Assembly (NCBI GenBank): GCA_030147925.1 | Contig: JASBUK010000026.1 | Coordinates: 1 to 38,750 of the forward strand | Origin: Trueperaceae bacterium | GTDB lineage: Bacteria > Deinococcota > Deinococci > Deinococcales > Trueperaceae | Direction: 5' to 3' | DNA: 38,750 nucleotides | Shown: piece by piece, positions 122-33,421 of the stretch | Layout: each line of letters opens with the position of its first letter | How positions within the stretch are numbered: position 1 is the first letter of the stretch | Translations under genes and position numbers: made by a program | Notes under the pieces: generated by a model | What the model was told of the DNA's origin: nothing | Database searches by the model: none | Seen by the model: only the letters and a program-made list of their open reading frames with translations

Positions 122-197
122 AATTTGGGGTAAATATGCACACCCTGCCGGATTTTTGCCAAGCAAGGTAAACTGCTTGTAGACCTATCCCCAGGAG

Positions 198-284
198 GGC
201 GTGTACCAAAAATTGTGTGTAATGGTTTATCAGCTTTCGTAACACTAGCTGGCAATTTTAATACACGGATTTTTGGGACACCTT
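198..284. mobile_element. MITE-like element, copy A (87 bp)
   Basis: The left end GGCGTGTACCAAAAATTGTG and the reverse complement of the right end (AAGGTGTCCCAAAAATCCGT) form imperfect terminal inverted repeats. The element aligns along its whole length with the reverse complement of 32490-32579. It carries no ORF. The flanks read CCCCAGGAG (189-197) and ATTTAGGAG (285-293), sharing AGGAG, which may be a decayed target duplication. The right-hand AGGAG is the ribosome-binding site of the synthetase gene starting at 301, so the insertion appears to have landed in that site and kept it. The ends resemble my recollection of IS256-family ends; no transposase is present, so the family is an inference. 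Confidence 0.65.
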
Positions 285-300
285 ATTTAGGAGTGCCATC

Positions 301-7663: not shown

Positions 7664-7689
7664 CCTCAAGACGTACCTCAAATTGCGTA

Positions 7690-7906
7690 AAGAAGTGAGT
7701 AATAGGTGGTTGGTAGTAGGTAGTTTGTGGTGAGTGGTAGGTAGGAATGGCATTTCTGAAAAGTTTCCCCGCTGAGCCCTTTTGATTAGCGATCCATTGA
7801 CAAATTCTCGTTGCCTGATTTTGCCATCGCCAGAGAATCTCTAGTTTCTACCCCCTACCAACCACTTTCCACTTTCCGCCTTTTACTTTCCACTAACCAC
7901 TTTCTC
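7690..7906 (-). repeat. Dispersed intergenic repeat, copy R1 (diverged, minus orientation)
   Basis: This is the main content of the 505-bp gap 7403-7907 between the two binding-protein genes. Read on the minus strand it begins with a purine-rich run (GGAAAGTAAAAGGCGGAAAG). A core matching copies R2 and R3 follows (GGCAAAATCAGGCAA, then AGAAATG), and it ends in CTACCTACCACTCACCACAA. The outer low-complexity arms are loosely complementary to each other. No convincing gene lies in the gap; 7435-7617 (minus) is open but has no recognisable protein character. Confidence 0.65.
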
Positions 7907-7907
7907 T

Positions 7908-9421: not shown

Positions 9422-9447
9422 CCGAAAAAGGTTTGTACTTAGTTGAG

Positions 9448-9755
9448 AACAGGGAATTGAGTGGAAAGTAAAAAGCGGAAAGTAGAAAGTAAAGAAACAG
9501 TAAAAAGAGGAAAGTAAAAAGAGGAAAGTGGGGTTTTCCAGCTCTGGCGAGAATCAGGCCATTGGAATTTGTCAGCTCTTAAGCACTAACGTTCAAAAAG
9601 AACTCGGTGAGGGACTTTATAGAAATGTTTTTCCCACTTACCACAAACCACCAACTACTAACAAAATTGGCCTAAGCCCCCACACCTAACTTTGTGGGAA
9701 TGTTTTCTAAAAACGCTTTTCCTACCTACCACAAACCACTTACTACCTACTAACT
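9448..9755 (+). repeat. Dispersed intergenic repeat, copy R2
   Basis: This is the main content of the 663-bp gap 9192-9854. It has a left purine-rich arm built from GGAAAGTAAAAAG units (about 9460-9530). The core is about 120 bp, and 9576-9652 matches 24748-24824 at 76 of 77 positions. The right pyrimidine-rich arm is built from ACCACAAACCACC-like words and appears again after a second short segment (about 9720-9755). There is no gene in it. The rest of the gap holds the operator-like sites listed separately and one GCTCGAGC octamer (9266). Confidence 0.75.
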
Positions 9756-9854
9756 GGTAATACGCAAAATCCAGTGACCAAGCAGAGGTTGTCAAATAGG
9801 AAGCGTTGTAAGACGTCATAAACCGCGAGGCAAATTTGGGACGCAACGTCGCCA

Positions 9855-24639: not shown

Positions 24640-24862
24640 TGGGCAGGTGTTGAGGGGAAAGTAAAAAGTAAGTGGGAAGTAGTTGGTAGGAGGTAGAAAC
24701 CAGGGGTTCTCCAGAGGTGGCAAAGTCAGGCAATGGGAATTTTTCAACTCTTAAGCACTAACGCTCAAAAAGAACTCGGTGAGGGACTTTATAGAAATGT
24801 TTTTCCCACTTACCACAAACCACCTACCACAAACTTCCAACTACCAACCACCAACTTCTTTG
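24640..24862 (+). repeat. Dispersed intergenic repeat, copy R3
   Basis: This fills most of the 395-bp divergent gap 24555-24949. The left arm is purine-rich (GGGGAAAGTAAAAAGTAAGT, then GTTGGTAGGAGGTAG). The core includes CCAGAGGTGGCAAAGTCAGG and a 77-bp block (24748-24824) matching 9576-9652 at 76 positions. The right arm is made of CCACTTACCACAAACCACC-like words. The two arms are loosely reverse-complementary, so the element has inverted-repeat form. An open frame (24733-24924) crosses it but has no protein-like features and is not conserved in R2. Confidence 0.75.
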
Positions 24863-24949
24863 TACTGAGACGCATAATCGTTGACATTGTTTTTAAGCGG
24901 CTTGATATACTTGCAAACATCTAAAGTTTAATAGCAAGCGCGAGGAAAG

Positions 24950-32030: not shown

Positions 32031-32483
32031 ATGGCAGACGTAAACATTCAAGTTTCTCAGGACGGTTCCAGGCTCGTTACTAATGACAAGCTCACGCTTT
32101 ATTACTTTATGCCCCAACGCTATGACCCCACCCACGATGGCAAAATTCCCTGGATGGCGGATTTTCCCAGCTATTTGCTGGATTGGATTGAAGACTGGGA
32201 CCCGCTAACGGGTAAAGCCAGGATTCCTTATGGCGGTAAAAACAAATTTGGACTTGACCTGGATGACTTTAAGTACATTACACGCAAGGGTGGGCCAAAA
32301 GCCCAGGAACAGCAAATCATGTTTAGGTACTGGTATTTGTACACCTATAAAGGCGACGGCCCCAACCAGATTAACGGCGAAGTAAACGGCATCTGGCAAA
32401 GGGTTTCCCCAGATTTGATTAGCTTAGCTGACTATCTGGGTGATGAGTCTATGCCTTTAGAGAGCTACGCTAGTGGACCTTAA
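32031..32483 (+). CDS. Hypothetical protein downstream of the Liv-type operon
   Basis: 150 residues that I do not recognise. The gene has a good ribosome-binding site (AAGGAGAAAGT before ATG 32031) and lies on the same strand 82 bases after livF. The protein is soluble, without signal peptide or membrane helix, and rich in Trp, Tyr and Asp (PWMADFPSYLLDWIEDWDPL, then FRYWYLYTYKGDG). Its stop TAA is the first three bases of a 9-bp target duplication made by the adjacent MITE. Before that insertion the gene would have overlapped the next one in TAATG, which suggests it was once translationally coupled to the cyclotransferase gene. Confidence 0.75.
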   Translation: MADVNIQVSQDGSRLVTNDKLTLYYFMPQRYDPTHDGKIPWMADFPSYLLDWIEDWDPLTGKARIPYGGKNKFGLDLDDFKYITRKGGPKAQEQQIMFRYWYLYTYKGDGPNQINGEVNGIWQRVSPDLISLADYLGDESMPLESYASGP

Positions 32484-32489
32484 TGGAAG

Positions 32490-32579
32490 AAGGTGGGCCA
32501 AATTGTGTGTATTGAAACTGTCAAACAGTATCTTTTACGCAGTTTATAAACTGTAATACACAATTTGTGGTACACCGCC
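32490..32579. mobile_element. MITE-like element, copy B (90 bp) with 9-bp target duplication
   Basis: The element is flanked by perfect 9-bp direct repeats TAATGGAAG at 32481-32489 and 32580-32588. Its ends are imperfect inverted repeats: AAGGTGGGCCAAATTGTGTG on the left and, read on the minus strand, GGCGGTGTACCACAAATTGT on the right. The middle has a further palindrome CAGTTTATAAACTG (32540-32553), so the transcript would fold. It has no ORF. Its reverse complement aligns with the copy at 198-284 throughout. A 9-bp duplication and these ends fit a non-autonomous derivative of an IS256-like element; the transposase is not in the window. Confidence 0.8.
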
Positions 32580-32581
32580 TA

Positions 32582-33421
32582 ATGGAAGTATATAGAGCAT
32601 GCAAAGCCCCAAAACTCAGCCCCCATATCCTGAATGAATATGACCGTAAACCCAATCAACTTGCCTGGACCGAGGGCCTACAGTGGCACCAGGGTTATCT
32701 TTATGAAAGCACGGGCTCACCCACAGGCGTCTCAGGCAAGGGAAGCAATGCGCCGGGGCTGTCCATACAATCATTTTTGAACCAGCTCAAACTAGCGGCA
32801 AACGCAGTAACGGTAGAGAAAAGCTTTTCTTTGCCGTTTAAGTACTTTGCCGAGGGTCTGGCCAGAGATAATAACAGGCTCTATCAGCTCACCAAAGATA
32901 GCGCAACGGTGCTTGTTTATGAGCTAGAACCTTTGCAACAACTCCGCAACCTGCCAACATCCACCCAGGGCGTTGCAAGACGCTGGGGCCTTTGCTTTGA
33001 CCAGGACAAGCAAATGTTTTATCTGAGCGATGGAACCGCCACGCTAAAACTGTATACAAAAAGGCAATTTGAGGCTTTTGACTTAGCTGAGCCAGCAGCT
33101 AAACTCCGGGTGAGTTGCAACGGCAAAGCAATTGCCTTTCTTAACGACCTGGAGTTTGCCCGTGGCTACATTTATGCAGCGGTCATGGAAGACGAAAACA
33201 GCAATTGCATTGTAAAAATAGATTCGGCAACTGGCAATGTGGTGGCGCAAATCAATGCGCAAAATTTAAGAAGCAGACAGCAAAATACCAATGCCAAAGA
33301 CCTAAACGGCATTGCCCATTACCGCACTGATCCCGAAGATGGGCAAGATGTCTTTTTTGTCACGGGTAAATTCTGGTCAAAAATTTTTGAGGTTAAGTTT
33401 CTAAACGCTTTTGCCCTATAA
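32582..33421 (+). CDS. Glutaminyl-peptide cyclotransferase-like protein
   Basis: 279 residues of the plant/bacterial glutamine cyclotransferase family, a five-bladed beta-propeller that turns N-terminal Gln into pyroglutamate. Family signatures are LAWTEGLQWHQGYLYESTGSP, SLPFKYFAEGLA, RLYQLTKDS, RWGLCFDQD, YLSDGTATLKLY, LNDLEFARGYIYA, IVKIDSATG, KDLNGIAHY and FFVTGKFWSKIFEV. Known members are usually exported, but no signal peptide is encoded, so it would be cytoplasmic unless the original 5' end was lost. ATG 32582 lies within the right-hand target duplication of the MITE, with no ribosome-binding site. GTG 32567 inside the MITE is the only upstream alternative. Confidence 0.82.
   Translation: MEVYRACKAPKLSPHILNEYDRKPNQLAWTEGLQWHQGYLYESTGSPTGVSGKGSNAPGLSIQSFLNQLKLAANAVTVEKSFSLPFKYFAEGLARDNNRLYQLTKDSATVLVYELEPLQQLRNLPTSTQGVARRWGLCFDQDKQMFYLSDGTATLKLYTKRQFEAFDLAEPAAKLRVSCNGKAIAFLNDLEFARGYIYAAVMEDENSNCIVKIDSATGNVVAQINAQNLRSRQQNTNAKDLNGIAHYRTDPEDGQDVFFVTGKFWSKIFEVKFLNAFAL

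Follow-up and report, generated by a model that had tools for sequence, protein, structure and literature searches.

The 91-bp element at positions 32489 to 32579 of the window (by which we mean the whole stretch of DNA analyzed, 38,750 nucleotides long, which is one entire contig, C18, of a 2.98-Mb genome in 151 contigs) stands between two genes whose stop and start codons appear once to have overlapped. We conclude, with considerable confidence, that it is a nonautonomous MITE, likely moved by an IS256-type transposase, which entered a TAATG sequence by way of an 8-bp staggered cut, left both encoded proteins unchanged, and comes from a family that shows no preference for junctions of this kind. 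In the mechanism that we propose, the staggered cut would have fallen within the TAATG stop-start overlap, and its repair would have duplicated the sequence TAATGGAA, with the left copy ending the upstream gene and the right copy starting the downstream gene. Copies of the element would remain only where no protein is broken, and an overlap shorter than the 7- to 8-bp duplication would be such a place. The putative cost of the insertion would be weaker translation of the downstream gene.

The element, here called copy B, lies on the plus strand, has the ends GAAGGTG... and ...GGTACACCGCC, and is one of a family of paired-end copies. It is flanked by two 8-bp duplicates of TAATGGAA, the left of which (32481 to 32488) retains the upstream stop, while the right (32580 to 32587) provides the downstream ATG at 32582. 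An earlier note on this DNA, made from the letters alone, had described the insertion as a 90-bp element with a 9-bp duplication; the insertion is real, but the family alignment revises its dimensions to 91 and 8 bp. The 9-mer TAATGGAAG does occur on both sides, at 32481 to 32489 and at 32580 to 32588. In the family alignment, however, the G at 32489 is the first base of the element itself (GAAGGTGTCCC...), being conserved in most other family copies. Since this ninth base belongs to the element, the duplication is 8 bp long, and the match at the ninth position is a matter of chance. Copy B departs from the family consensus in having GGGCC in place of GTCCC, and it folds as a single long imperfect hairpin (-30.4 kcal/mol, z -3.05).

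Given that 0.24 matches to TAATGGAAG are expected in the window, and that two copies of this 9-mer arose in 2 of 100 shuffles of it, one might suppose that the pair is nothing but a chance repeat flanking an ordinary intergenic hairpin and that no insertion ever took place. We regard this as vanishingly unlikely. The two copies abut exactly the ends of a multicopy element as the family defines them, perfect duplications are found at these same ends in 18 of the 44 copies, and the family alignment refutes the chance reading of the pair.

The two genes themselves bear out the reconstruction. The upstream open reading frame (32031 to 32483, plus strand, 150 amino acids) begins with the ATG at 32031 and terminates at a TAA (32481 to 32483) that lies within the left duplicate; homologues from another family of the order align with it up to about residue 150. 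The downstream frame (32582 to 33421, plus strand), which begins with the ATG at 32582, encodes a glutamine cyclotransferase (PF05096) whose alignments with its Pfam family and with relatives begin near the N terminus (with the relatives, at residues 5 to 28). When the element and one duplicate were deleted in a script, the junction became CTAGTGGACCTTAATGGAAG, in which the TAATG overlap is restored and TAA and ATG share an A; the element-free junction predicted for this gene pair is CTTAATGGAAG. In the restored sequence a TAG stands four codons ahead of the ATG in the downstream frame, which would have made a start farther upstream impossible. Because the restored TAATG, the in-frame TAG, and the N-terminal alignments all agree, we take both proteins to be unaltered by copy B. 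Two assertions of the earlier note, namely, that the element split and duplicated a TAATG overlap and that both proteins stay intact, thus hold. It should be added that the element has brought in a GTG, at 32567, in the reading frame of the ATG, and initiation there could lengthen the downstream protein by five residues. The nearest relatives are distant and do not carry this gene pair, and the homologues of the upstream gene that were found all belong to a different family of the order, so that an orthologous empty site is not available for copy B; a search for paralogous empty sites in the DNA around the copies returned self matches only.

The element is a MITE, and a clear example of the ordinary kind. 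Copies were collected by a same-genome similarity search, which returned dozens of related stretches, and then by separate searches for the two ends followed by pairing, which together yielded 44 paired-end copies in this genome; given that the assembly is fragmented, further copies, as well as the parent element, may be missing from it. The consensus ends are GAAGGTGTCCCAAATTGTGTG and, inward from the opposite side, GGCGGTGTACCACAAATTGTGTA (the pair can also be written GAAGGTGTCCCAAATTGTGTG / GGCGGTGTACCAC). About 27 copies are 85 to 91 bp long, two are 29 bp, one is 68 bp, and 14 are 107 to 251 bp, most of these last having a different, low-complexity interior. Throughout this range of 29 to 251 bp the family is multicopy, has no transposase open reading frame, carries related inverted sequences at its two ends, forms a long hairpin, and is accompanied by target site duplications, and in the case of one sister copy (discussed below) the site is empty in five relatives. 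Of the 18 perfect duplications that abut the ends, 12 are 7 bp long and the other 6 are 8 bp long. Outside this genome, the 91-bp element gave no match in 60 genomes drawn from the host's own family and order, and an exact 18-base end pattern gave 8 scattered matches among 84,980 species genomes, by our estimate roughly the chance level for 18 bases.

The two 29-bp forms (C22:13042-13070 and C95:3846-3874) consist of the two ends fused together, each with its own 7-bp duplication, and a genome-wide search returned no others. They look like either internal deletions at the base of the hairpin or minimal mobile forms. Elsewhere, at C57:16117 (L023) and C15:78409 (L024), two left-end fragments of the 91-bp element have a flank in common, and this shared flank matches the inside of a sister element; it seems that one repeat became nested in the other and was then rearranged or duplicated.

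With regard to parentage, the left end of the family matches that of a resident IS256-family element, IS-a (GAGGGTGTCCCGAATTTCGTG), at 17 of 21 positions, and the right end matches at 13 of 21 in an ungapped comparison. Two plasmid IS256 elements served as yardsticks, one having ends and an 8-bp duplication and the other having no clear duplication; both ends of the family share the layout of the former. The genome contains ten PF00872 matches, mostly fragments, and its best-preserved resident transposase is assigned to IS256 by both Pfam and NCBIfam. As in the resident copies and in the plasmid copy with the 8-bp duplication, the ends of the family are of the G-rich/GTGTCC/AATT..GTGT type. 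Unlike IS256 elements, the family lacks a transposase, its two ends differ from each other, and duplications of 7 bp (12/18) are commoner than those of 8 bp (6/18). IS256 target duplications are usually 8 to 9 bp, and 7 bp is slightly short by this standard. Judging from these sequence resemblances, the MITE was likely moved by an IS256-type transposase. The earlier note had proposed looking for a full-length insertion sequence with the same ends, and in this fragmented assembly none came to light: among pairs of ends lying up to 2.5 kb apart, none enclosed a transposase. Unpaired ends were also considered as possible edges of an autonomous element, and these ran either into rearrangements or into a second class of repeat.

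Copy B is not the only member of the family to be found at a gene junction. At C149:5473-5645 (L134), an element of 173 bp whose ends follow the family pattern separates a frame that closes with TGA from one that opens with ATG; its flanks, GATGTTT and GATGCTT, agree at 6 of 7 positions, and the restored junction reads TGATG. An empty-site comparison of the sort suggested by the earlier note could be made for this sister copy, and it supports insertion: in five relatives (G001, G009, G011, G014, and G017) the two genes are adjacent and free of the element, and the orthologous pairs overlap or share bases. Two of these relatives have an ATGA overlap and a third has TAGTG; in the other two the open frames overlap over a longer stretch. 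At the C95 29-bp form the duplicated sequence is CTCCTTA, or TAAGGAG on the coding strand, which comprises the stop of the upstream gene together with a Shine-Dalgarno-like motif for the next. Within the window there is also a second, diverged copy of 89 bp, copy A (197 to 285, minus strand), which precedes an acetyl-CoA-synthetase-like gene (301 to 2244) and is separated from its ATG by 15 bp. Copy A had previously been placed at a ribosome-binding site. The element is real, and its best candidate duplication (AGGAGGG/AGGAGTG, 6 of 7 by eye) contains the Shine-Dalgarno-like AGGAG, although no perfect target duplication abuts its ends. In a separate case, the edge of a 91-bp copy (C3:17274-17364; L006) provides the stop codon TAG of a neighboring minus-strand frame, and this copy may have trimmed the C terminus of the neighboring protein.

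Positions such as these had been read in the earlier note as a sign that the family inserts at translation initiation junctions, with simple tolerance offered as the alternative. A true insertion preference for translation initiation or stop-start junctions, whether conferred by a sequence motif or by exposed single-stranded DNA, would be consistent with the location of the C95 copy, and possibly of copy A, at Shine-Dalgarno motifs. It would also be consistent with the splitting of a stop-start overlap by two copies (2 of the 36 with both neighboring genes called), where about 0.2 such insertions are expected among all 44 copies (Poisson probability about 0.02, calculated by hand and post hoc). 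That expectation treats all tolerated positions as equal and takes their number from the gene overlaps present in the window itself; the difference is a faint excess, which is too little for a claim of targeting but leaves room for a weak preference. Against such a preference stands the placement of the family as a whole. Gene context was assigned with a simple homemade codon usage caller, run on the stretches around each copy, and the 36 copies with both neighbors called were compared with random points simulated in the same gaps. Within 5 bp of a start we observed 2 copies versus 3.4 expected, within 20 bp 8 of the 36 versus 8.06, and within 50 bp 18 versus 14.9. Proximity to starts is therefore that of random placement. 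Moreover, the 18 perfect duplications, while A+T rich, otherwise share no common target motif, TAATG-like or other. We thus consider a genuine preference unlikely, and the idea that the family aims at initiation junctions is not supported. Tolerance, on the other hand, fits: all 44 copies lie outside the called genes (in the window, the coding share between the first and last gene is about 88%). Where the duplication exceeds the overlap in length, the stop is recovered on one side of the element and the start on the other. Tolerance is enough to explain where the copies lie, and good evidence that they aim at overlaps is absent.

As for the consequences of the insertion, weaker translation of the downstream gene would be expected because some 100 nucleotides now separate its ATG from the upstream stop, with a strong hairpin immediately in front of the ATG and no obvious ribosome-binding site; no Shine-Dalgarno motif is visible before the ATG at 32582. 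A start codon placed on the upstream stop is the usual arrangement for reinitiation, and it is plausible that translational coupling was lost through copy B. One could instead imagine that the base of the extruded hairpin brings stop and start together, such that a terminating ribosome still reaches the start, coupling is kept, and the element persists for that very reason, but this strikes us as highly improbable. A related suggestion is that the element is a working part of the operon (an attenuator, an RNA-processing hairpin, or a bridge) kept at this junction by selection. The strong hairpin directly between the two frames would suit such a role, as would the orientation of copy B, which follows transcription like that of 15 copies in the 25 tandem contexts. 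Yet 15 versus 10 amounts to no clear orientation bias, and given that the family is limited to this genome among those searched, long-term conservation of the site cannot be shown; we therefore think a selected operon function quite unlikely and favor an inserted element that is tolerated, probably at some expense to translation of the downstream gene.

Comparable elements are known from other bacteria. MITEAba12 of Acinetobacter is a bacterial MITE with 9-bp duplications (PMC6382973), and the present family resembles it in being short and noncoding, in having terminal inverted repeats, target duplications, and many copies, in the A+T-rich, motif-free character of its targets, and in having ends that resemble those of resident insertion sequences. 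Unlike MITEAba12, it has different ends, duplications of 7 to 8 bp, a parent that was not found, and two copies that split gene overlaps. In layout, and with no sequence relation claimed, the family also recalls the Correia, ERIC, BOX, and RUP elements, which likewise are intergenic hairpin repeats present in tens of copies and sometimes touch the ends of genes (PMC3049150). BOX elements have been reported to encode stop codons at the 3′ ends of genes (PMC3049150), whereas here it is the target duplication, and not the element, that carries the stop and the start. In the open literature searched we found no direct precedent for the division of two overlapping genes by a MITE, although one may exist elsewhere. 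Overlapping pairs can tolerate insertion because the whole overlap ends up on each side of the element whenever the duplication is at least as long; this provides a simple guide to where small mobile elements accumulate in compact genomes. Natural gene pairs of this kind, in which the overlap is broken while both proteins are unchanged, could also serve to gauge the value of coupling.

Other repeats were noted in the window. Three intergenic stretches (7673 to 7907, 9440 to 9760, and 24650 to 24870) are rich in GTAAAAAGTGGAAAGTAG and CCACAAACTACC motifs and resemble the interiors of the 107- to 251-bp sister elements that occur at many sites in the genome. At the contig end, positions 1 to 135 contain short degenerate repeats of the form TAAATT(C/T)G(C/G/A)TTCTCG, which may mark the border of a further mobile element.
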